Positions 36,676 through 56,590 of a stretch of 63,151 nt of DNA are shown in pieces. The position numbers were made by a program, and so were the translations under genes. The notes below the pieces were generated by a model, which saw nothing but the letters and a program-made list of their open reading frames with translations, had not been told where the DNA came from and searched no databases. Every line of letters begins with the position of its first letter. Positions within the stretch are counted from its first letter, which is position 1. Source of the stretch: Lachnospiraceae bacterium (lineage in GTDB: Bacteria; Bacillota; Clostridia; Lachnospirales; Lachnospiraceae); contig JAFRXH010000009.1 of NCBI GenBank assembly GCA_017437785.1, forward strand, positions 1-63,151, written 5' to 3'.

Positions 36676-37376
36676 TTCTTTTGTATCTCTTTCTTCCAGT
36701 ATTCAACTGCCTCTGCGGCCGCTGCCTTTTCGGCATTTTTTTTATTTTTTCCGCTGCCGCTTCCGCAGGCTTCTCCGTTTACCTTAACTTCCACGGTATA
36801 GCACTTATCATGATCCGGTCCCGTCTCGTTTACCAGCACATATTCGATATGTGCCTCCATCCTGCGCTGCAGCAGTTCCTGCAGAGTGGTCTTCGGATCC
36901 TTATCTATAAGATGCTCTCCGGCAGCGCTCATCACTTCGCGTTCCACAAAACGGGCAGCCTCATCAAATCCCCCGTCCAGATATACGGCGCCGATCAGTG
37001 CCTCATATGCATCCGAAGTTACCGATGCTTTTTTTCTTCCACCGCAGGCTTCTTCGCCCTTGCCCAGTCTTAAAAGCTCCCCCAGGGACATTCTCCCGGC
37101 GCACTCTGCCAAAGGCTTTTCGCTGACCAGTGACGCTCTCAGATATGTGAGCCTGCCTTCGGGAAGCTGTGGATATCTTTCAAACAGATATCTGCTGCTT
37201 ATCAGTTCCAGTACCGCATCCCCCAAAAACTCAAGCCGCTCGTTACATTCGGTCTTATTGATCTTGCGTTCATGCGCATAGGAAGAATGGGTCAGCGCGG
37301 TAAGCAGCAGGCTCTTATCCTTAAAAGTATAGCCCAGGCTCTGCTCGATACGCGATATACGCTCCTCATCATTCAT
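36666..37376 (-). CDS. rnc: ribonuclease III
   Basis: RNase III cleaves double-stranded RNA in rRNA and mRNA processing. It has 236 residues. The catalytic signature NERLEFLGDAVLELISSRYL lies at about 43-62, and a second acidic site is in SDAYEALIGAVYLDGG. The C-terminal dsRNA-binding domain (about 160-230) ends in GSGKNKKNAEKAAAAEAVE. It overlaps acp by eight bases and smc by ten. Confidence 0.97.
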   Translation of the reverse strand: MNDEERISRIEQSLGYTFKDKSLLLTALTHSSYAHERKINKTECNERLEFLGDAVLELISSRYLFERYPQLPEGRLTYLRASLVSEKPLAECAGRMSLGELLRLGKGEEACGGRKKASVTSDAYEALIGAVYLDGGFDEAARFVEREVMSAAGEHLIDKDPKTTLQELLQRRMEAHIEYVLVNETGPDHDKCYTVEVKVNGEACGSGSGKNKKNAEKAAAAEAVEYWKKEIQKKCT

Positions 37377-37608
37377 CGCACTTCACCCGGCATATCAGCT
37401 CATAAGCATCCTTAACACTTTTAACGCGTGCCCACTCGTGTATGGGAATGTTAATCTTAAGCTCTTCCTCGACCAGCTTAAATATCTGGGCCATATCGAT
37501 CGAATCGGCTCCAAGAGTGGTCTCAAATGTCGCCTCGGGCGTTATCTCGGCATTATATACCTGAAGAGTCTTCTCTATAGCCTTTTTTAATACTTCATAC
37601 TCCATCAT
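37369..37608 (-). CDS. acyl carrier protein
   Basis: The 79-residue carrier protein is in the canonical plsX-acp-rnc position and carries acyl chains for fatty acid synthesis. The phosphopantetheine Ser is in LGADSIDMAQI, the motif usually written DSLD. The protein is less acidic than most AcpP proteins and has a C-terminal Cys-Arg-Val-Lys-Cys tail, so it may be a divergent or specialised ACP. The ATG lies inside plsX (14-base overlap). Confidence 0.92.
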   Translation of the reverse strand: MMEYEVLKKAIEKTLQVYNAEITPEATFETTLGADSIDMAQIFKLVEEELKINIPIHEWARVKSVKDAYELICRVKCDE

Positions 37609-38617
37609 CGCTCCCCAGCTTCATCTTTTCCTTGATCTTTTCATTGATATGCTGCGCTTTAAAGGTCCGGCACTGCAATATCGAATTCCTGACCTCTACC
37701 GCTTCGGCTGAACCGTGCGTCTTTACCACCAGACCGTTAAGCCCTAAAAGCGGTGCTCCGCCGTACTGTTTAACATCAAAATCCTTAAGCACTTCCTTAA
37801 GTGCCGGTTTAAGCAGTAAAGCTCCCAGTTTGCTGCGCATGTTACTGAGCATCGCACGCTTTAATGCTTTGAGAATAAATGTTGCTTCGCCTTCATAAAG
37901 CTTTAATATGGCATTACCGGTAAACGCCTCGCATACGATGACATCAGCCGCGCCAAAGGGTATATCCCTTGATTCCACACAGCCTGTAAAGTTGATATCA
38001 TCGCATTCCTTAAGCAGAGGTATAGTCTCTTTTACCAGGGCATTGCCCTTTTCTTCCTCCGCCCCTATATTAACTATTCCCACACGGGGCTTATCTATAC
38101 CCAGAGCATTCTCCGCATAGATGCTTCCCATTCTGGCGAACTGCACCAGCTGTTCTGCCCTTGCGTCAACATTTGCCCCGCAGTCTATCAGCAGTGATGC
38201 TCCTTTTTCGGTAGGTATTATGGGAGCCAGGGGCGCACGTTCAACCCCGGGTATACGGCCTACTATCAGCTGTCCGCCCACCAGTATCGCTCCCGATGAT
38301 CCGGCGGATACAAAGGCATCACAGGTGCCGTCCTTTACCAGATGCAGGGCTTTTACTATGGATGAGTCCTTCTTCCGGCGTACTGCCATTACAGGCGGTT
38401 CAGCCATCTCTATCACTTCCGATGCATGCACCACCTCAATGCGCTTTTCATCATAGCTGTATTTGGAGAGCTCGTTCGCTATCACATCCTCTTTACCGAC
38501 CAGATATACTATCACGTCATCGGCTTCTTTTAAGGCGTCTATAACGCCTGCTATTATCTCTCCCGGGGCATTATCCCCGCCCATGGCATCCATGGCTATA
38601 CGTACCGTCTCGCTCAT
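37595..38617 (-). CDS. plsX: phosphate acyltransferase PlsX
   Basis: PlsX makes acyl-phosphate from acyl-ACP, the first step of phospholipid synthesis in Firmicutes. It has 340 residues. Marks are RIAMDAMGGDNAPGEIIAGV at the start, VVHASEVIEMAEPPVMAVRR, DAFVSAGSSGAILVGG, and VIVCEAFTGNAILKLYEG. It heads the long operon that continues to queA, transcribed from its own promoter at 38656-38684. rpmF, usually immediately upstream, is 11.7 kb away here. Confidence 0.97.
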   Translation of the reverse strand: MSETVRIAMDAMGGDNAPGEIIAGVIDALKEADDVIVYLVGKEDVIANELSKYSYDEKRIEVVHASEVIEMAEPPVMAVRRKKDSSIVKALHLVKDGTCDAFVSAGSSGAILVGGQLIVGRIPGVERAPLAPIIPTEKGASLLIDCGANVDARAEQLVQFARMGSIYAENALGIDKPRVGIVNIGAEEEKGNALVKETIPLLKECDDINFTGCVESRDIPFGAADVIVCEAFTGNAILKLYEGEATFILKALKRAMLSNMRSKLGALLLKPALKEVLKDFDVKQYGGAPLLGLNGLVVKTHGSAEAVEVRNSILQCRTFKAQHINEKIKEKMKLGSDDGV

Positions 38618-38655: not shown

Positions 38656-38684
38656 ATTTTACTAAAATTATATAAAAAAAGCAA
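38656..38684 (-). promoter_or_regulatory. promoter of the plsX operon
   Basis: TTGCTT (38684-38679), a 17-base A/T spacer and TAAAAT (38661-38656), about 39 bases before the plsX ATG. It makes plsX independent of transcription from the giant gene upstream. Confidence 0.82.
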
Positions 38685-38705
38685 GGATAAATCCCCCCGC
38701 AACAT

Positions 38706-38823
38706 GAAAGCCCCCGCGCAGGCGCGCGGGGACTTTCGTATCTTCATCAGGCATACAGCCCGCCGCGCGATGCGCGTGGGTGTGATCACATCCGGCTTAC
38801 ACTTTCCCGCGCAGGCGCGCGGG
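38706..38823. repeat. three GC-rich palindromes after the giant gene
   Basis: Two copies of CCCGCGCAGGCGCGCGGG (within 38711-38731 and at 38806-38823) flank a related CCGCGCGATGCGCG hairpin at about 38760-38777. The first has an extended GAAAG/CTTTC base. They lie between the giant gene stop and the plsX promoter and could fold stably in RNA, but none is followed by a U-run on either strand. They are much more GC-rich than the neighbouring DNA and look like mobile REP-type elements. Confidence 0.82.
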
Positions 38824-38835
38824 GGTGCGGTCACA

Positions 38836-41800
38836 TCAATCCTTCAGTTTCTCAAATATCTTCTGCGCGGATTCGGCATCCGTCTTTCCTATCAGATCTT
38901 CAAGTCCCAGCACTGCCAGCGCCACCTTAGCCAGTATCTTTGGCTGCTTGAGCGGGTTATTATCGCTGGCCGAAAACAGCAGCGAATTCACCATGTTAAG
39001 TCTTAAGTAATCGGCAAATTCTTCTCTTCTTTCAAATCCCAGCGCCCTCTGCAGCATATCCAGCTGACCGGTCTTTATCTGATAGCCTCCGCTCACATCC
39101 GGATACAGTGCCAGCTCTTTAGGTTGCTTCTTGATATTTCTGGTGCTTGTGAACGAATTCAGTTTCCTGCGCCCTTCCATGATGCGGGATACTTCTCCTG
39201 CTCCGCCGCTTGAATAGTATTCCATGAGCGCGTCTTTATCGGACATGCACTTATAGAAGAAGTTAGCCAGATCCACAGCCACGCCCACGATCTTGTCATA
39301 TCCTTTAAGATTGGCGATATTGAGTCCCTTCTTTGTAAGCTCGCCCAGTGACTCTATGATCTTCCTGCCCTGGATGCTCTTGGTCATGCTGTTATTGGCG
39401 TTAAGCAGTGCCAGGCGGTCTTTTGAACCTTCTTCAACTTCCTTAAGGTCATCTTCGGAGAACTGGCCGGCTTTCTTTACTTCCTCTACCATCTTCCGGT
39501 CTTCCGAAGCCGCTTCAACGCCTTCAGCTTTGGCTTTATTAAGTTTGTGGATGTTTACACCTGCCTGGACGATATTCTTGAATTCACCGATCATATCTAT
39601 CGCAGGGCTCACATACTTGGAAACCGACTCCATAAATCCGGTAACAGCGCCGGCCTTTTCAACCAGTCCGTCAAGGAACTGTTTCATTTCGTTATCATCA
39701 CCGAGGTGATCGTTAAGTATCACATCTGCCAGGCTGTCGCGTTTATCCATGGTCCAGTCTCTTGCGCTCTCGTACCAGCCGGCTGCTTTGGTCGCCGTCA
39801 GTCTCTCACCGAATACTTTCTTTAAGTATTTATCGGCCATCTCGAGCTTCTCGGGATTTTCTTTGATAAACTTGTCTGCCTTATCCTTATAATCCGGAAG
39901 ACTTGAGGCAAAGCCCATTACCATCTCAAGGATAGGTTTACCCTTAAGCGGCTTTTCGACTTCCTTCATTTCCTTTGACAGTTCATCCTTGGGTTTTACC
40001 TTTTCTTCCTCTTCCTCTACGAAGATACCCTTATATTCCTTATATGTATCCTTAAACTGGTCTTTCATCTCCTTCAGGGAATCGTACTGCTCTTTTGCAT
40101 CCATGACCATTCCGGCAAGTGACTGGAGCAGAGGCACTTTCTCCTCCTCTTCCTCATTGTCGTCAGCGTCGTCATCATTATTATCCTCAGCAGCCTTTTC
40201 CTCGGGTTTCAGCTTATTTACCTGTTCGTGCAGATAGTTGGCCGTCTTGGTACTTACAAGGAAGCCGCCAAAGTCCACAGCCTTCTCAAACAGTCCCAGC
40301 TTATCCTCGATCTGTGCATAACCTTCCTTTGCCAAAAAGCGCATGAAGCGTGACCCCGTATGATGGAGATTCTTCCTCATATAGCTTCGGTCCATCTTGA
40401 GCTTGGCATTCTTATCCTTCTGTGCAACAGCCTTATAAAGTGCCTCATCATAATCCGCAGTCTTTCTCTCACGTACCGTTCTGGTAACGAACTGAAGCGC
40501 ACGCTCAAAGAGTTTCCAGTCCAAACGTGTAGCCTTACGCTGATCCGTGACTAAAAGCTGGTTGTTGACATTAATGTTCTTGTATGCCCAGTCGGAGCCC
40601 TCCATCTTTTCAAAGCTCATATCATCGTTTACCTGGGTCGATAAAAGGCTGAGTATCGCTTCCTGATATGTATCCTTCCCCAGTTCAATGCCCTCTCCGC
40701 TCTGGTTCTTTTCCAGGAATTCGTCGATCAGTGCATCCCTTTCCTTAGGATTAACGTAATCACGCTCTGCCCTTCCGAAGAAGTTCCAATACAGGTTCTT
40801 CTGAGATACATCCAGTATGTCTCTGTGCTGCAGACACTTAACAAAGAGTATCTTCTCCTGGGGTGAAAGCGAATAATAACCGGTCATCATATCGTCTATT
40901 TCCGCCCCGTCGCTAAAGAAACCTGTGACATCATTTTTATCCAGGAAATAAGCACTCTCAATGATATCATCCAGATCCTCGGGTGTATGAGCCTTGTATA
41001 TGGCCGGTCCATAAGAGGGATGCTGTAAAAACTGCACGGCTTTACTGTTCTTATTTGCATCCGTAGGTTCCGTCACCTGCTTATGCGCCAGACGAACGGC
41101 CAGCATCTTACGCTGCTCTCTCTTTATCTCATCGATAAAGTCCATGGCATGGGCCAGAAGATCCCAGTCAATGGCCTCCACACGCATCAGGCTTTCTTTG
41201 ACAAAATCGTCTTTCTGAAGCTCACCGTCCGGCAATTCCTTGTCATCCCTGACCTGGAAGCTGTAAAGGCTCTTCATCGCATTACGCAGCATGCTCTCAT
41301 CAGCCGAACGACTCAGCGCATCAAGCTTACCGTCATCAGTCATAAGCTTCTCATATAACTCAAAGCGCTTTTCTGCATTCGCATGAGGAACTATCTTTGT
41401 CTTCTCATCTTTTCCGGCTGATGAATAATCCAAAGCAGTACGATCCTGAAGCACGTAGATCAGCAGGCTCTTTTCGCCCTCACTCATCTTATCCAGTCTC
41501 TTCATTACTTTGTCGACCGATGTATTTTCCTTCCAGTCGGAAAACTTACGGAAGCCTTTGGATATAAGCCCCTGCGAATCCTGCGAAACCTTATCGGCTT
41601 GTGACTGTTCACGCAGCCGTGTGAAGAAATCCTGCTTACTCTCTATCTTGATGTCCTTCATCAGCTTGTGGCCGGTCTGCAGTCCTTCAACATCCTGCGC
41701 GACCTTTTTACGCCACTTATCGGCTGCCTCAGCATTCTTCATGCTGTCGGACATACGGCTGAAGTCTTTTACGCGCAGCATCTCACGGCGCTTATTGACC

Positions 41801-44800
41801 ATCTCGACAAAATCAAGAGCTTCTCTGAAGAGCTTGGTATCTCCCGAGATCTTAAAGTTCTTGGACTTGGTCGAAAGCGCACGTATAGCACGGTTATAGT
41901 CAGGCTTAAAGTCAACCTTTTCGCCCTTCATATAACGAAGTATCTGTTCACGGTCGGATTTGAGCATCTCCGGCTTGTTTCCGTATACGACAGACTGTGA
42001 ACCATGCTGCCCCAGCTTTGAGCAATACAGTGAGAGGACCAGCAGGCTTCGCTCATCATCATTAAGCGCCTTATATTTCTTAACCAGCTCGCTCTTACGC
42101 GTAGCAAACAGCGCATGTTCAAAATCCTTACGTGATACAACGCCGGTACCCAGCATCTGCTGTTCATACTCCTCATTGCTTATACTTTCGCCCTGGAGCA
42201 TAAGAGCATTTCTGGTTTTTTCATCCTCCACGCGCTTAAGTACATCCTGTCTTAATTCTTCCTCATTAAGCGCCACACCGTTAGTGCTGTCATTAAGTAT
42301 CTTCTCGGTAAAGTACTCTCTTAAAGATGTCCGATAACGCAGCTTGTCTTCATCGGAAAGCCTGTTGATGGATCTGTTTTCCTTCATAGCATTATCGATC
42401 ACTTCATAGGCCTTATCCGCATACGCAAAATATGCTTTCTGTGCTTCGATCATATCGCGGAAGGTCTTCGTATCTGCAGTTGTGCCGCGCTCGCTGCCAT
42501 AGAGGAACAGATATGCACGGTTCTTCTCACATGCATCGGTCAGCACGCGCTTTAATGCAGGATCCTTTACTTCTATGGCTTCCGCTTCTTTCAGCCTGTT
42601 ATAATAAGGCATGAATTCGGAAGCCAGCTTCTCTATGGCTTCGGGCGTAAATACACCCTCCTGTGAGAACTTAGCCGCATAAACAATGAACAGATCCCTG
42701 GCATCTTCAGGTACACCTTTTTCGGATTTGGCCACTCTGGAAATTATCTTTAATCTGTTGGCCTCCATCTTGATATCATCATCAACACCATCGACAAACC
42801 AGCCGGCAACCTTATCTCCCAGGCGTCCTATACGCTGATAATAACGGTGATTTACACGGCAGTACTCATCAAGACATTCGGCAAGGATATCCGAATACTC
42901 ACCTTCTTCGACTTTCTTTCCGTTCTCGTCCTTCTCAAAATATTTCTGTGCTTCTTTTAAGAGTTCCTCATCCTTCTCTTCCCCCTTGGATTTGACTTTC
43001 TTATTAAGCTTAGCCTTTTCGGGTGTATAGACCAGCGTCTGCTTCTTCTGGCCGAATTCCGTCAGCTCACTCTGCTTACCGCCGAATAGGAGTTTGCTCA
43101 TAAGTGTGCGGCCGCGGTATTTCTGCTGCATCACTTCATTCTGATCTTTCCTTCTTTCCTCGATCTTTGCCTCCATGGCTTTTTCGAGTAATTCCTTATT
43201 TACCTCAAACTCTTCTTCAACATTACGCTTCTGTTCAAGGAATTCTCTTGCATAAGTGCCTATTACCTTATTGAATCCGGTAACATCCAGTTCCACACAC
43301 TTTCCGCGCACATGACGTCTGAACTGGCTGAGAAGCTGCTCAATATCCTTCTGATCTTCCTCGGAAAGACCTCCTATCGCACTCTCGATAGCTCCTTCAT
43401 CCTCATCAACCTTTATATCATGTTCTGCCTCAAGGATGTGTCGGAGAAATGTCATCTCCGCTTTTTCATCATTTGCCAGATAGCGCTGCGTGTATTTCGC
43501 ATACATTTTCTTGGCCACATCATTGTTTACCAGCTGCTGCGCCTCTGTATCATCAGCCAGAATGACATACTGCATAGCATATATGACATCCATAGCGTTC
43601 TTCATTGATATCTGGTATTTGGTCTGCTTATGCTTCTGCGCCACCAGTTCCACGCCGGTATTCTTCGAAGTTCTGAACCACCACTTGCGGTACTTGGCCG
43701 TGCGGGTCTTAAACTGCTTTTTGACATCCTCATCCTCATACATCATGTGCTTTGCTATCTCCGTCTGGGCATCACCGCATGCCGAGTACAGCACCTGTTC
43801 TATCGACTTGGTACCCTGAAGAGTATTCGTAAAGTATTCATCGGTATAAGACTGGAGCTGTTTCTTCCAGTATTCCTCCTGGGCATTTTTGATAAGCTCC
43901 ATCTTCTTGTTATGCGAATTAATAAGCTCTTTTCTCTGGTTTTCCTTTGATTCTTTTGTTTCCTTAGACTTTTCTATTGACTTAAGCTCTTCCTCGTATA
44001 AAGCCTTCTGTGCCTCTTCATCCTTAGGCGCATTCTTACGCACCTCTTCAAGCTCTTTTGAAAGAGTCTTATGCCATTCGGGTTCACCTTTCTTATCTTC
44101 TGTCTGTCCGCCATACTTAAGCAGTATGGGGAATTTTTCTTCTATGAACTTCTTGGAAACAAAGGTATACTGCTGGTTAAGCGCTCTCGCCAAAGGCGCA
44201 TAATCATCATACAGCTTTTCAATGCGTTCTCTTGCCAGGAACTCTTCAGACCCTATAAGATCACTTAATATCTGATCGTCATTAATAAATGCTTCCCAGA
44301 ATATAGCCAGCGAACCGTCTCCATATTCTTCAAGCATCTTGCGGCGTTCCTCAAAAAGAGTCACGCTGCTCTGAACATCATTTTTTAGCTTACCGTCGGC
44401 GTCGATACAGTCAGTAAGATGATGCGTCATCTGATCTAAGTTATCATATCCGCATAAGAGTGAGTTCTTGCCATACTCTTCTGCCAGCTTGGACATATTT
44501 CCGCTGATCTCTTTCATCAGAGAAGCTGCTTTTCCCTGCTGGGACTCAATCTCCTTAAGCTCATCCTGTATCTTTTTCTCTACATTATTCTTCTCCGCTT
44601 CCAGCACTTTTACCTGTGCGCCTATCATAGTTACTCTGTCATTGGCTTCATCATATGTCCTCTTAAGATATTCAAGTTCTTCCTTTGCACCTTTGAACAC
44701 CCTTTCTCTTTCCTTGGCATATCTTGCTATGTCATCACTGAGCTTCTGCTTTTCGTCAAGTATGTTCTCCTTCTCCTTAAGCTGTGCTGACATATCATCC

Positions 44801-47800
44801 AGGATCTTCTGGCTGGCAGCTTTCTTGGATTCCAGATCTTCGAGCAGCTTCTTATCACTGTCTAAGCTTTTTTTCAGACTATCGCGTTCGTTTTTTTCAC
44901 TTTTATACTCTTTTGTTTTTGTATGCTTTGCAGCTTCTTCATACTTCTTAAGCTCAGACTCATAGTTTTCATTCTTAACCTTTTTATTTTCTTTTTTGTT
45001 GTCCTTACCAACTACTTCTACGACCACTTTCTTGCTGGGCTTTTGAAGATTATCATAAGTTGCCACCTTCGCCTGAAGCTTATCAAATCTCTTCTGCTTA
45101 TCCTGTATTCCCTTCGTCAGGTTTTTGATCTGGGCGTTGCACTCAGCTACCGTATCTACCGCTTTGATCCTTGCCTTGCTTTTATCATAAGCATCTTTAG
45201 CTGCTGCATATACAAGCTTCTCGTTATCATAAGCAGCTCTTTTTTTATTGTAATCCTCACGATTATCCTTAACCTCATCTGCCAGCTGCTCAGTCGCTAA
45301 ACGTCTGTTATTTATCTTCTCGGTAACTTCCTCAGCCAGGGCCTTCTGATTATCAACTTCCTCGTATGCTTTCTTGATACCTTCTTCAAACTCCTCAACG
45401 TCTTTCTCGTACTTTTGCCGCAGCTCCTCCTCGATCTCCTTTGTACTTCTGAGCTTCGTCATCCTGCTTATCTGATCCTGGTGCTCCTTGCTTTCTGCAG
45501 TAAGGAATATCTCCATAAGCTTATCCCGAAGCTGCATCTTAAGCTCCGGATTCGCATCATATTTAGGTGTATTGAGATAACGGTCCATGATATCAAGACG
45601 CTGATGGATGTAACGGGCATCATTCTCCATCATCTTCCTGTATGCTTCATCATCCCCATAATGCTCAAACATGGCTCCCTGGCGTATACAGCCATGGGAA
45701 TACATCTTATCCTGGGCATCGCACAGCGACAGCTCCAGCATATACTTAGCCGGATCAGCTGCTTTTACATCCATCTGGCTTTCACCATATTCACTTACCA
45801 GATCTATGTCTTTTTCGACAATCTTTCCGTCTTTACCGGGTACGGGTCTTTTGCAGGTAAGAGCTTCACGTATCGTAGTATACAGACCATCGGCACCATT
45901 GTTTCTTATCTGATACAGATTGATAAGATGATCATCCAGTTCAAAGCCCGCTTTCTTAAGCGCTTCAGGCCCTTCCTTTATCGCTTTGGCCAGTCTGCCA
46001 AGCTTCGACACTACACTTTCCTTGTCATTATCCCTGTATGCTTCTTTTATCCATTTTTTAACCTGTGCAACCGCCTCCGGCGATCTGCTTTCAAGTCTTC
46101 TCCAGGCAAAACTTGCCTGGTCCATCCTGCTGACACGCTCACCCAGCCACTTCTTGCCTTTTCCGAAATACTCCTGCCAGATGCTCTTATCCCTGTCCTT
46201 CATATCTTCGAAGCGGTACTTGACCCTGCCATCCCTTTTAAGCGACTGGCGTCCGATAAGATACTGCATACGATGACGTTTAAGCTCTTCTTTATCTTCG
46301 TGTTCCTTTAACTGCGCTCTTAACATAGCGCTGACATTTTTAACTTCCACTTTATCGCGCATCATATCAAGGAGAACGCATCTGCGCATCTGCTCAATAC
46401 GCTCATCTCCCTGGCTGCCTTCATCCAGTAGCTTTTTAAGCCCGCTCTTATTCTTCTCGAGATTATACTTGATGACATCGACCATCTTGACGAATTCCCC
46501 GTAAGGCATAGCATCCAGATCATCAAGATTCTTTATATCCTTAAGCGCAGGGAAACGCTCCTTAAGCGCCTGGTTTTTAATGATCACGCCGTCGAGATTC
46601 TCAGCTATAAAGCGTCGCATCTTATCGTCCTTTATAAGTTCCTTTACCTCTTTGGACTCCATAAGCTGTTCACCCATAAGCAGTCCCTTATAGCTGAATT
46701 CATCTACATCCGAATATGTATTTTGAGGACGGTCAGCTGCCAGCTTATTACCCGCCCAGTTCTCAAAGCTTAACTTAACCGCATCCTTTTTCGCTTTTGC
46801 TTCTTCCAAAGCGATAAGTTCCGTTACGCTTTTTCCAAACTGCGCAAGCTGGTCTTTATCATATTTGAGTGCGCCGCCAGTACTTCTTAAGATCACTTTT
46901 TCAAAACGTGCACGTACCACTTCCCATGTTGCCGCACCGGCTTTTACATCCTTTGCCGCTTTCTTTAATTCTTCAAAAACAGGCACTATGGGCTTCAGCG
47001 CCTTCTTTAACAGATCCGCAGTACTCTTCTTCTCGTCAAGCTTTCCGATAAATCCGGAATTGACCAGGTATTGCTGGATCAGCTCCTTAAAACTGTCATA
47101 GAACGGATCATCAAAAAGTTTCGCATAAGCGGACTTAAAATCCTGATCAAGACGCGCTGCACTGATATTGGTAAGTGACAGACCGTTAAGATACCTCTCC
47201 GAAAGGTCACGCACCAGTCTGTAATCACCAAAGAGCGCTTTTTCTCCAAGGAATTCCCTCAGGCCTCTATAGCTGGCTTCTCCTGCCAGAGTTCCGAATT
47301 TCTTTACAGCCATACGACGGATAACCCTGTCTATGCCTTTTACATGATTGGTTATCTCGGTTATGGCATTGGGATCATCAAGTTTATCCGAAACAATAAG
47401 ATCCTTGATGACCGCACTCTTAAATATCCTTTCGCCGCGTGCTCTCAAAAGCAGCTTATCTTCCAGTGTTTCCAGATGAGCGCTGAATTTATCCAGCTTT
47501 TTGAAATCCTCATCACTAAGTTTAGACATTATCTCCGCAGATGAGAAAGCAAAAAAGGTCACTCCCATGCCATCCGGATAGATATTTGACTCCTCACGGG
47601 AAAACATTTTCCTGTAAAGCTCAAAAAGAGCGTTTTCCACCTCGGGGAAATTAAGCCCAAGCAGCTTACTGTATCTGTTGATCTTTTGCTGAACAGCCTG
47701 ACGTTGCGCCTTGGGGGTAAAACTGTTCATCATACCCGTCATATCATCACGTAAGCGTTTTCCAAGATCCTTTTCTTTATACTCATCTTTAAATTTCTGC

Positions 47801-49146
47801 CAGTTATTCTTATAGTTCTCATTCAGTTTTTCTGCTATGGCAACAAACTGGGCGTTGGAAATGCTGTCAAAAGCATCCTGTGACAAAAACTGCTCCGCAG
47901 TACCCAAAGCTTCACCCAGTACCCATCCTTCTTTAACTTCTTCTTTGGGTGCCGCTTCCGACTCTTTAAGCGCTATGGCATTCGGATCCCAGTTCCCCGT
48001 ACGCAAAAACTTAGACCAGGCAGCACGTAACTGTCCTGCCTTTCTCTGAGCCTTTGCTCTCTCTTTTTTGATCCTTGCCTCTTCTTTCCGGCGCGCTTTC
48101 AGTTCGGCTTCATCCTGCTCTTTTTTACGCTTTTTTAAAAGCTTTTCCTGCTCTTTGCGCTGTTTTTCCTTTTCCTTCTGCGCATTGGCGATAAGTTCAT
48201 CGGCTTTTTTCTTCGCCTCCTGTATTTCCCTTATGCGCTCTTCCTCAGTCATTCCTCTCTGGCGCTCAAGTTCCTTAAGGTAAGCTTCCTCTGCTTCCTT
48301 CTCTTCGCGTTCATCTTTATAAGCCGCCTTAAGCTGCCTTACCTCATAGTCGCTGCGTCTTTCTTCAAGGCTGTAAATACCTGTTGCCTTTCTGAAGGTA
48401 AACTCCTTGTGAAGGTCGCTGTCGATATTCCTCATATAGGTCTCGTCGGCCCTTAATTCCCTTAATACTTTATTGTAATCTGCCTTGATATTCTTCTTAT
48501 CCTTAGCGCTCATCCTTCCGCTGTTTATATGTTTCAGATACATACGCAGAAGACGGTAATTTTTACGCATGCGGTTGCAGACCTTATCAAAATCAAGCCT
48601 TCCTTTTTGATCGGTCTGGGTAGCCTCCAGATACTGATCCCTTGCCTGCGCATTTAATTCGATTATCTCTTTCTCATAACTGATCAGCGTCTTTACGGAG
48701 ATCTTGTTATTGCTGCGGCCCTTCTTCCTTTTGGTATAAGCCTTGGTAAGCTTATCCATTTTATCGTTCATGAGTTCACGATATTTCTTAAAGGCCTTTT
48801 TCCTGTCCTTTTCACTCATGGACTTATATCTTTTAGCATAAGAAGCCGCCTGTTCTTCTGCCGTATTCTGGTCTTTGTACTTTTTCTCTGCCTCTATCTC
48901 GGCAAGATCTTCCATCTCTTTTTTTAATTCAAAGAAATCCCAGTCCTTTTCAAAGTCCTGTTCCTGGATGATGCAATAATCCCTGTGGACACCAACCTGT
49001 TTGTACTTACCGTCTTCGTCCAGCACGGTATCGGTCTCGGCAACACTGAATATATTTCCCTGAAGGCTTTCAAAGGCATCCAGCTTTTCCTCTTTATTCA
49101 TTTCGCTGTATTTTTTGATGTTTACAAATTCATTTATCCCGTCCAT
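38836..49146 (-). CDS. giant intracellular coiled-coil and repeat protein, 3,436 aa
   Basis: One uninterrupted frame codes for about 395 kDa of protein rich in Lys, Glu, Asp and Leu. No signal peptide, membrane helix or enzyme motif was found, and I recognise no family. Visible parts, with approximate residues, are a basic helical head (1-270), a Glu/Lys/Arg coiled coil (272-385), and a long helical region without heptads (400-1220). A strong coiled coil follows at 1220-1560, then more helical sequence. Next are three tandem units of about 200 residues (starting near 2360, 2553 and 2757), acidic tracts (near 2985-3000 and 3041-3052), and a less charged Gly/Ala/Val-containing tail (about 3150-3436). 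The ATG overlaps the GNAT gene stop by one base (TAATG), so the two are coupled. The size in one frame and the lack of stops argue for active selection. The role is unknown; a cytosolic scaffold, an effector or defence protein, or a cargo protein are all open. Confidence 0.93.
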   Translation of the reverse strand: MDGINEFVNIKKYSEMNKEEKLDAFESLQGNIFSVAETDTVLDEDGKYKQVGVHRDYCIIQEQDFEKDWDFFELKKEMEDLAEIEAEKKYKDQNTAEEQAASYAKRYKSMSEKDRKKAFKKYRELMNDKMDKLTKAYTKRKKGRSNNKISVKTLISYEKEIIELNAQARDQYLEATQTDQKGRLDFDKVCNRMRKNYRLLRMYLKHINSGRMSAKDKKNIKADYNKVLRELRADETYMRNIDSDLHKEFTFRKATGIYSLEERRSDYEVRQLKAAYKDEREEKEAEEAYLKELERQRGMTEEERIREIQEAKKKADELIANAQKEKEKQRKEQEKLLKKRKKEQDEAELKARRKEEARIKKERAKAQRKAGQLRAAWSKFLRTGNWDPNAIALKESEAAPKEEVKEGWVLGEALGTAEQFLSQDAFDSISNAQFVAIAEKLNENYKNNWQKFKDEYKEKDLGKRLRDDMTGMMNSFTPKAQRQAVQQKINRYSKLLGLNFPEVENALFELYRKMFSREESNIYPDGMGVTFFAFSSAEIMSKLSDEDFKKLDKFSAHLETLEDKLLLRARGERIFKSAVIKDLIVSDKLDDPNAITEITNHVKGIDRVIRRMAVKKFGTLAGEASYRGLREFLGEKALFGDYRLVRDLSERYLNGLSLTNISAARLDQDFKSAYAKLFDDPFYDSFKELIQQYLVNSGFIGKLDEKKSTADLLKKALKPIVPVFEELKKAAKDVKAGAATWEVVRARFEKVILRSTGGALKYDKDQLAQFGKSVTELIALEEAKAKKDAVKLSFENWAGNKLAADRPQNTYSDVDEFSYKGLLMGEQLMESKEVKELIKDDKMRRFIAENLDGVIIKNQALKERFPALKDIKNLDDLDAMPYGEFVKMVDVIKYNLEKNKSGLKKLLDEGSQGDERIEQMRRCVLLDMMRDKVEVKNVSAMLRAQLKEHEDKEELKRHRMQYLIGRQSLKRDGRVKYRFEDMKDRDKSIWQEYFGKGKKWLGERVSRMDQASFAWRRLESRSPEAVAQVKKWIKEAYRDNDKESVVSKLGRLAKAIKEGPEALKKAGFELDDHLINLYQIRNNGADGLYTTIREALTCKRPVPGKDGKIVEKDIDLVSEYGESQMDVKAADPAKYMLELSLCDAQDKMYSHGCIRQGAMFEHYGDDEAYRKMMENDARYIHQRLDIMDRYLNTPKYDANPELKMQLRDKLMEIFLTAESKEHQDQISRMTKLRSTKEIEEELRQKYEKDVEEFEEGIKKAYEEVDNQKALAEEVTEKINNRRLATEQLADEVKDNREDYNKKRAAYDNEKLVYAAAKDAYDKSKARIKAVDTVAECNAQIKNLTKGIQDKQKRFDKLQAKVATYDNLQKPSKKVVVEVVGKDNKKENKKVKNENYESELKKYEEAAKHTKTKEYKSEKNERDSLKKSLDSDKKLLEDLESKKAASQKILDDMSAQLKEKENILDEKQKLSDDIARYAKERERVFKGAKEELEYLKRTYDEANDRVTMIGAQVKVLEAEKNNVEKKIQDELKEIESQQGKAASLMKEISGNMSKLAEEYGKNSLLCGYDNLDQMTHHLTDCIDADGKLKNDVQSSVTLFEERRKMLEEYGDGSLAIFWEAFINDDQILSDLIGSEEFLARERIEKLYDDYAPLARALNQQYTFVSKKFIEEKFPILLKYGGQTEDKKGEPEWHKTLSKELEEVRKNAPKDEEAQKALYEEELKSIEKSKETKESKENQRKELINSHNKKMELIKNAQEEYWKKQLQSYTDEYFTNTLQGTKSIEQVLYSACGDAQTEIAKHMMYEDEDVKKQFKTRTAKYRKWWFRTSKNTGVELVAQKHKQTKYQISMKNAMDVIYAMQYVILADDTEAQQLVNNDVAKKMYAKYTQRYLANDEKAEMTFLRHILEAEHDIKVDEDEGAIESAIGGLSEEDQKDIEQLLSQFRRHVRGKCVELDVTGFNKVIGTYAREFLEQKRNVEEEFEVNKELLEKAMEAKIEERRKDQNEVMQQKYRGRTLMSKLLFGGKQSELTEFGQKKQTLVYTPEKAKLNKKVKSKGEEKDEELLKEAQKYFEKDENGKKVEEGEYSDILAECLDEYCRVNHRYYQRIGRLGDKVAGWFVDGVDDDIKMEANRLKIISRVAKSEKGVPEDARDLFIVYAAKFSQEGVFTPEAIEKLASEFMPYYNRLKEAEAIEVKDPALKRVLTDACEKNRAYLFLYGSERGTTADTKTFRDMIEAQKAYFAYADKAYEVIDNAMKENRSINRLSDEDKLRYRTSLREYFTEKILNDSTNGVALNEEELRQDVLKRVEDEKTRNALMLQGESISNEEYEQQMLGTGVVSRKDFEHALFATRKSELVKKYKALNDDERSLLVLSLYCSKLGQHGSQSVVYGNKPEMLKSDREQILRYMKGEKVDFKPDYNRAIRALSTKSKNFKISGDTKLFREALDFVEMVNKRREMLRVKDFSRMSDSMKNAEAADKWRKKVAQDVEGLQTGHKLMKDIKIESKQDFFTRLREQSQADKVSQDSQGLISKGFRKFSDWKENTSVDKVMKRLDKMSEGEKSLLIYVLQDRTALDYSSAGKDEKTKIVPHANAEKRFELYEKLMTDDGKLDALSRSADESMLRNAMKSLYSFQVRDDKELPDGELQKDDFVKESLMRVEAIDWDLLAHAMDFIDEIKREQRKMLAVRLAHKQVTEPTDANKNSKAVQFLQHPSYGPAIYKAHTPEDLDDIIESAYFLDKNDVTGFFSDGAEIDDMMTGYYSLSPQEKILFVKCLQHRDILDVSQKNLYWNFFGRAERDYVNPKERDALIDEFLEKNQSGEGIELGKDTYQEAILSLLSTQVNDDMSFEKMEGSDWAYKNINVNNQLLVTDQRKATRLDWKLFERALQFVTRTVRERKTADYDEALYKAVAQKDKNAKLKMDRSYMRKNLHHTGSRFMRFLAKEGYAQIEDKLGLFEKAVDFGGFLVSTKTANYLHEQVNKLKPEEKAAEDNNDDDADDNEEEEEKVPLLQSLAGMVMDAKEQYDSLKEMKDQFKDTYKEYKGIFVEEEEEKVKPKDELSKEMKEVEKPLKGKPILEMVMGFASSLPDYKDKADKFIKENPEKLEMADKYLKKVFGERLTATKAAGWYESARDWTMDKRDSLADVILNDHLGDDNEMKQFLDGLVEKAGAVTGFMESVSKYVSPAIDMIGEFKNIVQAGVNIHKLNKAKAEGVEAASEDRKMVEEVKKAGQFSEDDLKEVEEGSKDRLALLNANNSMTKSIQGRKIIESLGELTKKGLNIANLKGYDKIVGVAVDLANFFYKCMSDKDALMEYYSSGGAGEVSRIMEGRRKLNSFTSTRNIKKQPKELALYPDVSGGYQIKTGQLDMLQRALGFERREEFADYLRLNMVNSLLFSASDNNPLKQPKILAKVALAVLGLEDLIGKTDAESAQKIFEKLKD

Positions 49147-50000
49147 TATGCTTCCTCCTCTTCATCCAGTTCTTCTAATCCATCTATCCCGTTTAATACA
49201 TCCGCAGACAATCCGTTCCACCGCGCGCAGATCAGCGGGAGCGGCTTGATCTCATCACCGAATATCCCCTGCGCCAGGCCGTAAGATGCCGGGTTGATGG
49301 CGGTGAACCTGATATCAGCTTTAGGATAAAGCTCATCAACCGCGTTTATGGCTGCACATAACAGGCTGCGGAGCGTCTTGACATTTTTATCGCCTACGAA
49401 TAAAAACGAAGCCTCCACATCTTTTTCTTCAAAAACGCTTACAAGTATCGCGCCGCTTATATGATCATTCTTTATACGCGCAAACGAAAGCCGCTTATCA
49501 TAATTTCCGGCTTCGAGATCCGCAAAATCATCAAAGCCGCGTTTTCTTAAGTCTTTTTCAAAATTTGAAAGCCTGATCTTATCAAGGGAGAACAATTCTA
49601 CCGCATCCGTCTCTTTCATTGACATTTCTTTCCATTTACTGATCTTCCTTCTCTGGGAAGCAGATGCCGTAAATACATATGCACTCTCTTCAATGATAAA
49701 GTTCCCCTGTGCTTTCAGGAAAGAAAGAAGGGCTTCGCTTTCCTTCTCCTCTGCAAATCTTATCTCAAACGGCATGAAAAGGTCTTTTTCATCCAGTGCG
49801 CTAAGCACATCCTGCAAAAGATCGCTCGCTATCTTCTTTCTGCGCTCGCCCTCTTCCACAAAAATGTAAGGCATTGTTACGATCCCGTCTTCCAGCCTGA
49901 TATCAAGCCTTCCCACGATCCTCTTTTGGCTGTCGATCGCCGCAAAGCGTTTCAATCCCGCTTCCTCTGACGGAAGCATAACCGTTGTGTAATTGCCCAT
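49146..50000 (-). CDS. GNAT-like acetyltransferase, coupled to the giant gene
   Basis: The 284-residue protein has an N-terminal GNAT-type half: IVGRLDIRLEDGIVTMPYIF as beta strands, then FVEEGERRKKIASDLLQDVL, a variant of the acetyl-CoA motif R/Q-x-x-G-x-G/A. The C-terminal half (about 150-265) resembles a second GNAT fold without the cofactor motif (LSFARIKNDHISGAILVSVF; FLFVGDKNVKTLRSLLCAAI). The ribosome site AAAGGAG is good. Its stop overlaps the giant gene ATG, which suggests fixed stoichiometry or a modifying or escorting role for the giant protein; that is inference. Weak motif conservation leaves catalytic activity uncertain. Confidence 0.82.
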   Translation of the reverse strand: MGNYTTVMLPSEEAGLKRFAAIDSQKRIVGRLDIRLEDGIVTMPYIFVEEGERRKKIASDLLQDVLSALDEKDLFMPFEIRFAEEKESEALLSFLKAQGNFIIEESAYVFTASASQRRKISKWKEMSMKETDAVELFSLDKIRLSNFEKDLRKRGFDDFADLEAGNYDKRLSFARIKNDHISGAILVSVFEEKDVEASFLFVGDKNVKTLRSLLCAAINAVDELYPKADIRFTAINPASYGLAQGIFGDEIKPLPLICARWNGLSADVLNGIDGLEELDEEEEA

Positions 50001-50001
50001 T

Positions 50002-50236
50002 TCATTCTCCTTTCAAAATAAGATTTTCAGCATCATATTCCTTCAGACACGGTTTTATTCTACCTGAATAAATACAGCCTTCTTCAAATTCAAAAAAAGA
50101 AGTCTGCATTGGCTTCCGTAATAAACTGTTCTTTTAAAATCCCGGAAATCGATCCGCGCTCCTGAGCGGAGCCGGCATTATCGTACGGCTTTAGCCGGTC
50201 AAGCAGATAGGAACAGCTGCTTTTCTCGTGATCCAT
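50002..50236 (-). pseudogene. small ORF interrupted at a T7 run, ahead of the GNAT gene
   Basis: From the ATG at 50236 (GGAGG seven bases before it) the frame reads MDHEKSSCSYLLDRLKPYD and on to a stop at 50090, 48 codons. The stop comes right after a run of seven T (50098-50092 region). If one T is skipped, the frame continues EFEEGCIYSGRIKPCLKEYD then AENLILKGE and ends at 50002, one base before the GNAT ATG. So a protein of about 77 residues is split in this sequence. It could be a sequencing or assembly error, a true frameshift mutation, a phase-variable tract or a slippage site. The sequence matches no family I know. Confidence 0.7.
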
Positions 50237-50269
50237 ATACATTCCTCCGTAGATCTTAAGGATTTATAT

Positions 50270-50278
50270 ATTATATCA
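50270..50278 (-). promoter_or_regulatory. extended -10 promoter of the small ORF-GNAT-giant unit
   Basis: TGATATAAT gives an extended -10 (TGn before TATAAT); TTGCAG lies 20 bases upstream as a poor -35. It stands between the rpmF terminator (50303-50333) and the small ORF, so the unit is separate from rpmF. Confidence 0.68.
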
Positions 50279-50302: not shown

Positions 50303-50333
50303 AAAAAAAGCCGTTCCTTTTGTAGGAAACGGC
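50303..50333 (-). terminator. intrinsic terminator of rpmF
   Basis: GCCGTTTCC and GGAACGGC pair (one bulge) around TACAAAA and are followed by seven U on the minus strand, 34 bases after the rpmF stop. Confidence 0.9.
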
Positions 50334-50631: not shown

Positions 50632-51834
50632 TCAATTCCTTTTCATAAGTATATCCATGCCGGCATCAAGCCCGCTGACTGTCAGCGGAAGCATGGGGAA
50701 TATCTCCTTGATAGCCGTCTCTGCTTCGCGCCAGGGCGCCGCTACGGGGCTCATCTTGGGATTCATCCAGATGATACGCTTATACTTGCGTTTGAGCCTA
50801 AGCAGCCATTCATGACCGGAATACCCGCCGTTGGGTCCGCGATAATTACCGTCTTTTGCATAAAGCTCTTCCGGGGCCATAGCTGCATCTCCCACTATGA
50901 TCACCTTAAAGTCCTTATCCAGGTTACGGAACATCCACTCCGTTTCTATCCAGTCACCGTTTTCGCAGCCCGGGGTATTGTATACATGCGAATAGATACA
51001 GTTGTGGAAATAATAGGTTTTTACTTCCTTATAATGATTTGATTTATGCACCGACTGGAACAGCTCATTGAGCAGGTCACAATACGGTATCATGGTACCG
51101 CCCGAATCCATGAGAAGAAGCAGTTTGACCGAATTCTTCCTGGGCTTGTCCATCACGATCTGCAGACAGCCGCCGTTATTACAGGTCTTATCTACAGTGG
51201 AATCTATATCCAGCTCTGTCTTGGGGATATCCAGCTTGGTCGAAAACTGGCGGAGCTTACGCAAAGCTGCCATAAACTGCCTGCCGGTAAGCACCTTATC
51301 ATCGCGGAAATCCCTGTATTTCCGGGCTCCTATCACCTGGAACGCGCTCTGATAGCCTGTCCCGCCGCCCACGCGTATACCGCCTATATTACCACCGGTA
51401 TTACCGAAGGAGGTCTTACCCATGGTGCCTATCCAGTACGCACCGCCGTTATGTTCACTGTCCTGGTCTTTAAGACGCTGCTTGAACTTCTTCTCCGTAT
51501 CATCCTTATCGATCTCAAAGCTTTCGACCGAATTAAGATACTCCTTATCCTTTTCATGCAGCATTTCGTTCATATCCGGCTTATCCAGCCATTTAAGCAT
51601 CCTGTCCGTGACACCCGGCTCCGATCTGACCGCCTTAAAGCATTCTTCAAAAGCCTGGTCAAACTTATCAAAGTCGGTTTCCGAATGGACCAGCACAGAC
51701 CTTGAGACATGATAAAAACGTGTGATCGAGCTTTCGCACAATCCCATGTCCAGAGCCTGCTGCAGTGTAAGCCACTCACTCACCGTCACATTCAGGCCGT
51801 ATTTTTTTAAACTGTTAAAGAAGTTATTAAACAT
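50632..51834 (-). CDS. VWA domain protein, CoxE-like
   Basis: The 400-residue protein has a helical N-terminal half (about 1-215) and a von Willebrand A domain (about 225-400). The metal-site motif reads LLLMDSGGTMIPY, with DSGGT instead of DxSxS, a variant I associate with CoxE-like partners of MoxR ATPases. Later marks are TYYFHNCIYSHVY, KVIIVGDAAMAPEEL and IIWMNPKMS. A Gly-rich stretch at about 135-165 (GNTGGNIGGIRVGGGTGYQS) precedes it. The start overlaps the MoxR gene end by eight bases. The pair probably inserts or removes a cofactor or remodels a target complex. The target is unknown. Confidence 0.9.
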   Translation of the reverse strand: MFNNFFNSLKKYGLNVTVSEWLTLQQALDMGLCESSITRFYHVSRSVLVHSETDFDKFDQAFEECFKAVRSEPGVTDRMLKWLDKPDMNEMLHEKDKEYLNSVESFEIDKDDTEKKFKQRLKDQDSEHNGGAYWIGTMGKTSFGNTGGNIGGIRVGGGTGYQSAFQVIGARKYRDFRDDKVLTGRQFMAALRKLRQFSTKLDIPKTELDIDSTVDKTCNNGGCLQIVMDKPRKNSVKLLLLMDSGGTMIPYCDLLNELFQSVHKSNHYKEVKTYYFHNCIYSHVYNTPGCENGDWIETEWMFRNLDKDFKVIIVGDAAMAPEELYAKDGNYRGPNGGYSGHEWLLRLKRKYKRIIWMNPKMSPVAAPWREAETAIKEIFPMLPLTVSGLDAGMDILMKRN

Positions 51835-52636
51835 AATGCTTTACCGTTTCCAGATCCTCATCCTTTTTAACGATAACTCCTATGAACGGCAGCTTTTCTT
51901 TAAGTGTATCCGTAGGTATGCCTCCCATCTGAAGGGCATTGACCCAGTCGATAAGTTCCGAAGTAGAAGGTTTCTTGCGCACATCCCTTATGCTCCTTAT
52001 CCAGTAGAACACCTCCATGGCATTCTTTAAGAGATTCTCCTCAATATCAGGATAATGTACCTTCACTATCTCTTCCATGAGTGCCGCATCCGGGAACTCA
52101 ATGTAATGGAATATACAGCGGCGCAGGAATGCATCGGGCAATTCCTTCTCTGCATTGGATGTGATTATCACTATAGGGCGCTGCTTTGCCTTCACCGTGC
52201 GCTTTGTCTCATGAATGTAGAATTCCATCTGATCCAGTTCCCACAGAAGATCATTGGGGAACTCCAGATCCGCCTTATCTATCTCGTCTATCAGAAGCAC
52301 TACCTGCTCATCGCTCTCAAAGGCTTCTCCCAGCTTTCCAAGCTTGATGTAGCGCGCTATATCATCCACGCCTTCCTCACCGAACTGTCCGTCGTAAAGG
52401 CGCTGTATGGTATCGTACATATACAGACCGTCCTGGGCCTTGGTCGTGGACTTGATGTTCCATATGATAAGCCTCTTGCCTAAAGATTTGGCTACAGCTT
52501 CCGCCAGCATGGTCTTACCGGTTCCCGGCTCTCCCTTTATGAGCAGCGGCTTCTTGAGCGCTATCGCCACATTTACGCTGTCCATCAGCGCCTGCGACGC
52601 CACATATTCCCCTGTAGAACTGAAATTTTCACTCAT
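51827..52636 (-). CDS. MoxR-type AAA+ ATPase
   Basis: The 269-residue AAA+ ATPase has Walker A GEPGTGKTMLAEA (about 36-48) and Walker B VVLLIDEIDKADLEFPND. Sensor 1 is in IVIITSNAEKELPDAFLRRC, with the arginine finger region RRC following. The ATG at 52636 is chosen because it follows GGAGG; the open frame extends to 52702 without a ribosome site and crosses the promoter. MoxR ATPases work with a VWA protein encoded next to them, as here (8-base overlap), as chaperones for metalloenzyme or envelope-complex maturation. Confidence 0.93.
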   Translation of the reverse strand: MSENFSSTGEYVASQALMDSVNVAIALKKPLLIKGEPGTGKTMLAEAVAKSLGKRLIIWNIKSTTKAQDGLYMYDTIQRLYDGQFGEEGVDDIARYIKLGKLGEAFESDEQVVLLIDEIDKADLEFPNDLLWELDQMEFYIHETKRTVKAKQRPIVIITSNAEKELPDAFLRRCIFHYIEFPDAALMEEIVKVHYPDIEENLLKNAMEVFYWIRSIRDVRKKPSTSELIDWVNALQMGGIPTDTLKEKLPFIGVIVKKDEDLETVKHYV

Positions 52637-52673
52637 CGCATAACCTCCGTACTTAAATATACATTCGCATGAT

Positions 52674-56570: not shown

Positions 56571-56590
56571 TTACCCCACCCTCATTATCT

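Follow-up and report, generated by a model that had tools for sequence, protein, structure and literature searches.

A giant helical protein and a tandem-GNAT-like partner as a candidate intracellular conflict cassette in Lachnospiraceae

Between rpmF and plsX in the window (the whole 63,151-nucleotide stretch of Lachnospiraceae DNA that was analysed), a gene for a giant, apparently cytosolic and helical protein directly follows a gene for a GNAT-like protein. Sequence comparison suggests that the two genes form an accessory cassette that is exchanged as a unit, with a tandem-GNAT-like protein as the dedicated partner of the giant. Our leading proposal, held tentatively and at somewhat less than even confidence, is that the cassette encodes an intracellular conflict system. 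No description of such a GNAT-giant pair was found in the open-access literature searched, as judged on titles and the starts of abstracts.

The giant protein and its family

The giant gene (38836..49146, minus strand) encodes 3,436 aa without a single internal stop, which agrees with the claim of the sequence-only reading that a very long frame is kept open here. Homologues were found at 56 loci, spread over 48 named genomes whose titles are, with two exceptions, Lachnospiraceae or Butyrivibrio; the lengths range from about 2.2 to 3.4 kaa (7–10-kb genes). The distribution is patchy, with homologues in 11 of 35 genus genomes, and 8 of the 48 genomes harbor two copies. The dN/dS values were 0.096–0.219 in the 7 of 11 giant pairs with finite dS (dS above 1.4 in three of the 7), and none of the pairs tested exceeded 1. 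The occurrence of similar-length homologues elsewhere, together with purifying selection, argues that the frame is not a product of chance and marks the giants as a genuine family, still without a name. The titles of the giant-bearing genomes are chiefly those of ruminant-gut Lachnospiraceae. Cultured rumen members of Butyrivibrio sp. in which the family occurs are AE3009, Su6 and AE2015.

The window giant matched 0 families at E up to 1 in Pfam and NCBIfam and 0 at E up to 0.1 in PHROGs and PADLOC, in agreement with the earlier remark that it carries no recognised enzyme motif. Comparison of 11 giants with Pfam gave 14 scattered weak families, the best at E 0.0026, and the same 11 giants had no match in PADLOC at E up to 0.5. 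The E 0.0026 match, seen in one of the 11, was Bact_surface_Ig-like. Giant sequences and profiles gave nothing at E 0.001 or better against profile libraries and the PDB; the PDB matches of the profiles (designed helical bundles, chemoreceptors, syncytin and others, all at E 0.0017 or worse) are read as helical composition. A known family spanning most of the giant, which the sequence-only reading had named as the outcome that would undo it, did not appear at E ≤0.001. Among the identities considered, a known anti-phage system was rejected, with 0 PADLOC families for P0001, P0002 (the window GNAT) and the 11 giants. At the sensitivities used, no relative of the giant was confirmed in viral contigs, phage records or plasmids, and both a phage tail or structural protein (0 PHROGs families for the giant) and a phage or plasmid origin of the pair were likewise rejected.

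The best reading of the composition is that the giant is soluble, lysine-rich and almost entirely helical. Lysine amounts to 12.7% and proline to 1.5% of its residues. In 31 of the 35 segments of one hundred residues, hydropathy was more strongly periodic at 100 than at 170 degrees, a count that has no control proteins beside it. The top 19-residue hydropathy of the window giant is 1.34; windows above 1.6 are absent in 44 of the 48 giants, and within the first 60 residues they occur in 0 of 48 (3 of which are without the true N-terminus). These scans uphold the earlier claim that the giant has neither export signal nor membrane helix, and they allow the GNAT and the giant to be called an apparently intracellular pair.

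The giant would be built from a variable, coiled-coil-rich N-terminal half followed by a conserved C-terminal module, which comprises three degenerate units of about 150–170 aa and a tail. All parts are given on the minus strand. The variable coiled-coil-like middle (44587..45399, residues 1250–1520) has an alignment occupancy of 14–19% over residues 1251–1500 and 30% over 1501–1550. Unit 2 (41047..41490, residues 2553–2700) matched unit 3 (40432..40881, residues 2756–2905) at E 9.9e-20, and the degenerate unit 1 (41647..42159, residues 2330–2500) matched unit 3 at E 1.7e-4 with a probability of 50%; no further N-terminal copies were convincing. Unit 3 lies inside the most conserved stretch, the C-terminal units are strongly conserved, and the conserved end is the C-terminus, which closes with a conserved tail (38839..39399, residues 3250–3436, ...IGKTDAES..KIFEKLKD). 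Large coiled-coil ATPases of the SMC/Rad50 type resemble the giant in being long, charged, proline-poor and helical, and the window's own SMC contains still less proline (1.1 vs 1.5%). Unlike them, the giant matches no ATPase head or hinge and has conserved repeats of its own.

The GNAT-like partner

The partner gene (49146..50000, minus strand) encodes a tandem-GNAT-like protein of 284 aa and overlaps the giant start at TAATG (...GCATAATGGAC), one base being common to both genes, as the sequence-only reading had described. The GNAT would be made just ahead of the giant, probably from the same transcript. Naming it a GNAT is weak for the window copy itself (Pfam E 0.0076, under the cut-off), whereas relatives pass: the copy in genome G030 scored 29.4 bits against PF00583 (cut-off 20.7), and that of locus L103 was also above the cut-off. 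The window copy had a single weak PHROGs match, an acetyltransferase at E 0.003, and 0 PADLOC families at E up to 0.1. A profile of 8 partner proteins found 6wqb/6wqc as its best PDB match (E 2.5e-5, query 44–165). The N- and C-terminal halves of the partner matched each other at E 1.6e-5 and 79% with 28 partners, and at E 0.002 with 10 window-clade partners alone.

The CoA pyrophosphate loop of GNATs has the motif [RQ]xxGx[GA]. At this position (49827..49844, minus strand, residues 53–58) the window copy reads RRKKIA, so that the first Gly of the motif is Lys. By eye, the loop is intact in the upstream partners of 11 window-clade loci (L063, L065, L066, L068, L069, L070, L071, L072, L074, L075 and L047), and a pattern search misses the motif in many partners of other clades. 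The change in the window copy and the many other-clade partners in which the motif was not found argue against obligatory catalysis. The nearest known proteins are tandem GNATs (Lha0223 of the VipF family, PDB 6WQB; MshD), at about 285 aa for the partner vs 293 aa; the partner differs from them in adjoining a giant gene and in its CoA loop. Tandem GNATs are described as usually having a single active domain per chain (PMC10936415, seen in part).

Across the family, a GNAT-family gene lies directly upstream of the giant at 27 of the 44 loci where an upstream gene can be seen (24 of 38 after removal of 6 near-duplicate loci), on one side of it at 22 of the 37 loci with both neighbours visible, and within 5 kb at 30 of 40 loci, as detected with a GNAT HMM whose seeds were mostly giant-adjacent GNATs and which was iterated on the same loci. 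Giants lacking a GNAT neighbour, which the earlier reading had named as telling against it if they prevailed, are a minority by these counts. GNATs were enriched among giant-adjacent over non-adjacent genes (odds ratio 8.5, p 6e-12). The top five matches of the window GNAT in 144 genomes, its own included, all lie directly upstream of giants. Giant and GNAT distances for 25 pairs correlated at 0.83, a value that none of 5,000 permutations reached, although the Spearman coefficient was lower, at 0.42. Shared clades contribute part of this correlation.

On this sequence evidence, we infer that the GNAT is a dedicated partner that binds or modifies the giant. The alternative that the giant has an unassigned role and that the GNAT, although it often shares an operon with the giant, works independently, for instance by acetylating small molecules, seems improbable to us. 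It draws on the 17 of 44 loci where no GNAT is directly upstream, on the abundance of GNATs (19 PF00583 matches in the window's own genome) and on more distant GNAT relatives that lie away from giants, 13 among the 19 matches listed; it sits poorly with the placement of the five closest GNATs and with a giant and GNAT that differ together at rpmF-plsX and diverge in parallel.

Some of the 17 loci carry a response regulator, SpoIIE phosphatase or AAA/nuclease gene instead. The neighbour scan covered 126 of 143 selected proteins (the 17 largest omitted), GNAT hits, proteins above 1,300 aa and 6 near-duplicate loci having been dropped beforehand, and its commonest Pfam assignments were 7 response regulators and 4 SpoIIE. 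No third conserved partner emerged; the largest non-GNAT BLAST cluster was mixed (39 proteins from 27 loci, 198–1,059 aa), with two-component or SpoIIE domains in the members scanned. Defence genes near giants showed no clear enrichment among the top 25 of 57 families, a count without a control set. The suggestion that the giant is cargo of an injection machine found no support, such genes being absent from the 25 most frequent of the 112 Pfam families of the 126 neighbours.

The rpmF-plsX site and exchange of the pair

The GNAT-giant pair is accessory cargo between rpmF (ribosomal protein L32; 50367..50549), the upstream flank of the insertion site, and plsX (37595..38617), the downstream flank, both on the minus strand. 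The site is empty in 23 of the 27 genus genomes in which plsX was matched, rpmF lying 143–265 bp from plsX. An intrinsic terminator of rpmF (50310..50333, minus strand) separates rpmF from the pair and is kept in genome G001, and a terminator-like hairpin (38681..38700, minus strand) lies in the gap between the giant and plsX. A promoter of the pair's own, as claimed earlier, is plausible: an extended −10 promoter-like element (50270..50278, minus strand) reads TGATATAAT in the window and is kept as TGGTATAAT in G001, but it was missed by a strict scan, whose sole find, a promoter ahead of rpmF, did not exceed the yield from shuffled sequence. The leading small ORF (50090..50242, minus strand; 50 aa, GGAGG just upstream) is present as described, but its place in a conserved unit did not hold up. 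It is absent from the same site in G001, the two small pieces searched against the fetched loci had no match better than E 0.25, and it was rejected as a system component.

Comparison of the window with G001 revealed a common site, terminator and promoter box, with identities of 32% for the giant core and 30% for the GNAT against 95% for rpmF, 95% for plsX, 97% for VWA and 99% for AAA. DNA homology stops inside the promoter of the pair and restarts before plsX, and the unaligned or diverged DNA between the aligning flanks delimits a putative exchanged cassette (38697..50268, minus strand). In genome G031, plsX is 97% identical to that of the window, and the giant (505 aa seen) is 32% identical to the window giant and 65% to the G001 giant. 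With giant and GNAT at about 31% identity at a common site and flanks at about 95–99%, the pair seems to have been exchanged together, and the two genes appear to be swapped as one cassette.

In another branch, at loci L112 and L118 near plsX, identity was 79% for the giant and 71% for the GNAT vs 93–98% for four flanking genes, and dN/dS was about 0.10 vs 0.013–0.055 for the flanking genes. By these measures the cassette is diverging faster than its neighbours in some pairs; in L083/L103 and L088/L089, conservation of the giant was about equal to that of neighbour genes. The site in G030 is occupied by unrelated cargo, so the rpmF-plsX location is no argument for defence. An element with terminal repeats was rejected, as the 400-bp flanks have one common 10-mer (random pairs average 0.52) and no 11-mer.

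The genes for an AAA (MoxR-like) protein (51827-52702) and a VWA protein (50632-51834) lie upstream of rpmF on the same strand as the pair (minus), rpmF being in between, which recalls the MoxR-vWA ternary conflict systems (PMC7159879, seen in part). We regard it as very improbable that these genes and the pair form one such system. AAA profiles match well, with bpMoxR and VWA_CoxE under the cut-off, but 24 of 35 genus genomes, 20 of them with an empty rpmF-plsX site, have an AAA orthologue at 85% identity or more. In G007, G028 and G029 this orthologue and the giants are on separate contigs, in G030 about 120 kb lie between them, and AAA and VWA are 97–99% identical where the pair was exchanged. 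AAA and VWA do not travel with the pair, and the connection was rejected.

Possible functions of the pair

Polymorphic toxins have a conserved N-terminus with an export signal, a variable C-terminal toxin and an immunity gene. This identity was rejected, as the C-terminus of the giant is conserved and 0 of 48 giants (3 without the true N-terminus) have an N-terminal hydropathy window above 1.6. In HlyC-HlyA, an acyltransferase gene adjoins a large substrate gene. The same arrangement is described for CdiC-CdiA, among the toxin-activating lysyl acyltransferases (TAATs) that also serve RTX toxins (PMC8510554, seen in part), and the likeness of the GNAT-giant pair to these is a works-like analogy. 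It could be extended to a toxin against other bacteria or eukaryotes (rumen protozoa), freed by lysis or another release route, the GNAT either activating it or conferring immunity; the joint change of giant and GNAT at the site would suit this. We consider this unlikely, and a little more so than an independent companion GNAT: P0002 has no TAAT domain, the giant has no export signal and no toxin, RTX or CDI domain, secretion and export genes are absent among the 25 most frequent of the 112 neighbour families, and the conserved end is the reverse of that in polymorphic toxins.

A stronger alternative, possible though not probable, is that the pair serves niche fitness: the giant would form a scaffold or cytoskeleton-like lattice in the cytosol, controlled by acetyl-CoA via the GNAT, and rumen bacteria would differ in their need for it. 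A soluble, helical giant with strongly conserved C-terminal units is consistent with this, as are the two-component and SpoIIE genes adjoining it at several loci (of the 126 neighbours scanned, 7 were response regulators and 4 were SpoIIE) and genome titles that are mostly ruminant-gut Lachnospiraceae. For a structural lattice, it would be unusual that close relatives carry alleles of about 31% identity at one site and that 8 of 48 genomes hold two copies, and the presence of the giant is patchy. The exchange of alleles and their fast divergence make us lean towards a conflict protein rather than a scaffold.

In the preferred conflict reading, the GNAT would bind the giant, and most members of the clade would also acetylate or acylate its lysines; with the CoA-loop glycine replaced, the window copy may act mainly by binding. 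Gain, loss and joint swapping of the pair at a fixed site suggest that its function is accessory and diversifying. The pair may counter phage or other mobile elements: the giant would sense or serve as a scaffold, and the GNAT would have a modifying or regulatory part. We infer the physical interaction, the lysine modification and the conflict or defence role alike. More speculatively, and with rather low confidence, the pair might represent an undescribed class of conflict system in ruminant-gut Lachnospiraceae, in which a giant helical sensor-scaffold is set by its cognate tandem GNAT via lysine acetylation/acylation or acetyl-CoA sensing and diversity is kept by cassette exchange at fixed chromosomal sites. 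A giant family with a cognate GNAT and divergent alleles at one site constitutes a testable unknown in abundant gut bacteria. As a conflict system it would have a new architecture; as a scaffold it would be a rare giant cytosolic bacterial protein under apparent enzyme control.

The giant and GNAT-like genes at the rpmF-plsX junction

The window, which spans all of contig C15 (one of 107 in a 3.2-Mb genome), carries on its minus strand the giant open gene claimed by the sequence-only reading, whose 3,436 codons (38836–49146) contain no stop, and the coupling proposed there held as well, since the GNAT-like open reading frame (ORF; 49146–50000, minus strand) overlaps the giant by one base. Downstream of the giant lie plsX (37595–38617), a 79-aa acpP-like ORF (37369–37608), taken as acpP from its position, then rnc and smc. 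As rpmF is upstream, the pair occupies what is otherwise the rpmF-plsX junction. A search of 35 genomes of the genus gave a plsX match in 27; rpmF lay immediately upstream in 23 of these, with 143–265 bp between tblastn matches, and the distance in the window is 11,749 bp. Giants preceded plsX in 3 of the 27: the window, the related genome G001, with rpmF on the far side of the pair from plsX, and the related genome G031, whose contig starts within the giant. The pair in the window is an insertion between rpmF and plsX. G001 has two extra genes between giant and plsX (284 aa, GNAT-family by HMM, and 336 aa). In one further genome (G030), an unrelated 447-aa gene precedes plsX, with rpmF ~3 kb further upstream, indicating that the junction accepts unrelated inserts as well; by eye, this cargo (L142:2636–3979, L177:3184–3360) has an extracellular glycoside-hydrolase-type look. 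At loci L112 and L118 from other genomes, distantly branching members of the giant family lie ~3 kb before plsX, rpmF being absent from the part examined.

The G+C content of the giant was 45.0% vs 46–50% in eleven other window genes measured, and its GC3 was similar to theirs, so composition gives no foreign mark. Upstream of the GNAT-like ORF, where rpmF also lies, a small ORF (50090–50242) had been read as leading the unit; it was dropped as a member because the small ORFs at 50002–50242 are not conserved. Two are present (50 and 35 aa); they overlap in a stretch of seven T, and the second of them stops just short of the GNAT start. A frameshift within a single small cistron, or an assembly slip, could explain them. 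Large proteins of 1,277, 457 and 1,343 aa, encoded in 52737–62115, lie upstream of the AAA/VWA gene pair, which is conserved; Flg_new/List_Bact repeats occur in five stretches of the first, and a Pfam search of the other two returned nothing at E 0.01.

Comparison of the pair between related genomes

The window and G001 have rpmF, its terminator and a −10 box in common. Their nucleotide homology ends at ~50268 of the window and restarts at ~38697 before plsX, leaving only short diverged matches of about 70% in between. Protein identity was 95% for rpmF, 94.7% for plsX, 97.0% for VWA, 98.9% for AAA, 74.7% for the acpP-like protein, 78.3% for an 83-aa rnc fragment and 74% over 450 aa for an upstream large protein, vs 31% for the giant (best local segment) and 30.6% for the GNAT; some flanks fall below 95%, yet every one is far above the pair. 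Against G031, identity was 97.1% for plsX, 92.5% for smc, 82.3% for the acpP-like protein and 85.4% for rnc, and this comparison covers the giant without its GNAT: the G031 giant was 31.6% identical to the window giant over 396 aa and 65% to that of G001 over 505 aa. In a tree built from 1,145 C-terminal columns of 42 giants, the window giant clustered with L069, L063, L064 and L065 (support 100), and the G001 giant formed with L075 a separate branch within the 13-row clade of the window. The simplest account is that homologous recombination in the flanks replaced GNAT and giant jointly; the ends of the segment are not marked by any repeat, direct or inverted. Close relatives of the window giant within the genus (G030, G007, G028) have other genomic surroundings, which indicates that the family also moves between sites.

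Spread, divergence and anatomy of the giant family

A profile built on the last 1,037 aa of the giant identified 56 loci in 48 named genomes (by accession prefix), two loci in 8 of them, in a pattern-based scan that is no proof of absence elsewhere. Apart from a Gracilibacteraceae and a Clostridiales record, all titles name Lachnospiraceae or Butyrivibrio, and many mention ruminant stomach or gut. Giants were present in 11/35 genus genomes (within 13/144 relatives), 9/397 family genomes and 4/391 of the class sample, including one marginal match outside the family (E 5e-4); none was confirmed among the viral contigs, phages and plasmids searched. By ORF, 41 of 48 aligned giants were complete, at 2,182–3,436 aa apart from the split copy L100, and open frames in the family-level sample ranged up to 3,846. 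Metagenome-assembled contigs are short, with some neighbour genes absent, and ORFs were picked mechanically. At L115, the N-terminal part is a separate 376-aa ORF immediately upstream (5660–6790 and 6794–13342), either a split giant or a frameshift. At L105:13426–18529 and L092:884–5694, a second large protein (1,285 and 1,320 aa, respectively) is encoded between the giant gene and the GNAT genes; neither has a Pfam match, and the two may be a second class. A weak BLAST link, which segment HMMs did not confirm, ties the 1,285-aa protein to giants.

The giant dN/dS was 0.096–0.219 in 7 of 11 pairs, dS being infinite in the other four, and no pair compared showed a sign of dN/dS above 1. Between L112 and L118, giant and GNAT were 79% and 71% identical vs 93–98% in four flanking genes, with dN/dS of 0.098 and 0.108 vs 0.013–0.055, and the N-terminal half of the giant diverged faster than the C-terminal half. 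Other pairs count against general fast divergence: the giants of L083/L103 and L088/L089 were conserved about as much as their neighbours, and those of L077/L078 were 95.2% identical vs 98.4–98.6% for neighbours.

The giant contains 12.7% Lys, 11.0% Glu, 1.5% Pro and 4.6% Gly (medians of 35 window proteins, 3.1% Pro and 6.9% Gly); at least four window proteins, SMC included, have less Pro. Conservation is low at residues 1251–1550 and peaks at ~2350–2950 and 3350–3436. Residues 2553–2700 and 2756–2905 are repeats (E 9.9e-20), and a third (2330–2500) matches unit 3 at E 1.7e-4. The two strong repeats have the consensus LQxRxxLDxS, SLLSxQxxD and RxTAxDWKLFxRALxFVxR, with R17, D21 and D108 invariant across 48 rows (24 sequences, two units each). 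A PDB profile search gave no match explaining them. Sequence comparison could have missed a distant known fold.

The GNAT partner and possible roles of the pair

The window GNAT alone is a weak GNAT match, and its relatives exceed the cut-off. The best match of the partner profile was the solved structures 6wqb/6wqc; 6WQB is Lha0223, a tandem GNAT of the VipF family, and in proteins of this class usually a single domain is active (PMC10936415). The two halves of 28 partners matched each other at E 1.6e-5 (79%), those of the 10 window-clade partners alone at E 0.002. Hydropathy windows above 1.6 occurred in 12 of 55 GNAT-family proteins.

The sequence-only reading had called for a test of whether GNAT and giant stay adjacent in other genomes. 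Where the gene directly upstream could be seen (44 loci), it was of the GNAT family in 27; a GNAT-family gene lay within 5 kb in 30/40, downstream in 8/48 and on either side in 22/37. These counts come from an HMM whose seeds were mainly giant-adjacent GNATs and which was iterated over the loci counted. Without six near-duplicate loci, the figures were 24/38 directly upstream and 20/32 on either side. As an independent check, the window GNAT was searched in 144 genomes; the five strongest of 19 matches, the window copy included, lay directly upstream of giants (that of G028 running off its contig), as did the weak match in G056, and 13 did not. Giant and GNAT distances were correlated over 25 pairs (Pearson 0.83, 0/5,000 permutations; Spearman 0.42). 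Loci L083, L100 and L103, from three genomes, have a conserved layout: a response regulator gene (Pfam basis for L083), the giant, genes of ~302, 216 and ~1,170 aa, a pair of GNAT-family genes (274–301 aa), and after these another large gene.

The GNAT may bind the giant and might modify its lysines; members of the window clade with an intact CoA loop favour such modification, and loss of the loop from the window copy and from other clades disfavours it. A modifier-plus-substrate pair would work like HlyC-HlyA or CdiC-CdiA (PMC8510554). Membership of that kind was rejected because TAAT, RTX and CDI domains are absent from the pair. Models of AbiEi, AbiO, ZorA/ZorB and IetA matched one to three neighbours each (best 25 of 57 families, no control set), and the neighbouring genes do not favour a conflict role; accessory presence, exchange and divergence do, and the pair may play one. 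It is a two-gene unit under selection, and both of its genes occur as different alleles at a single site.
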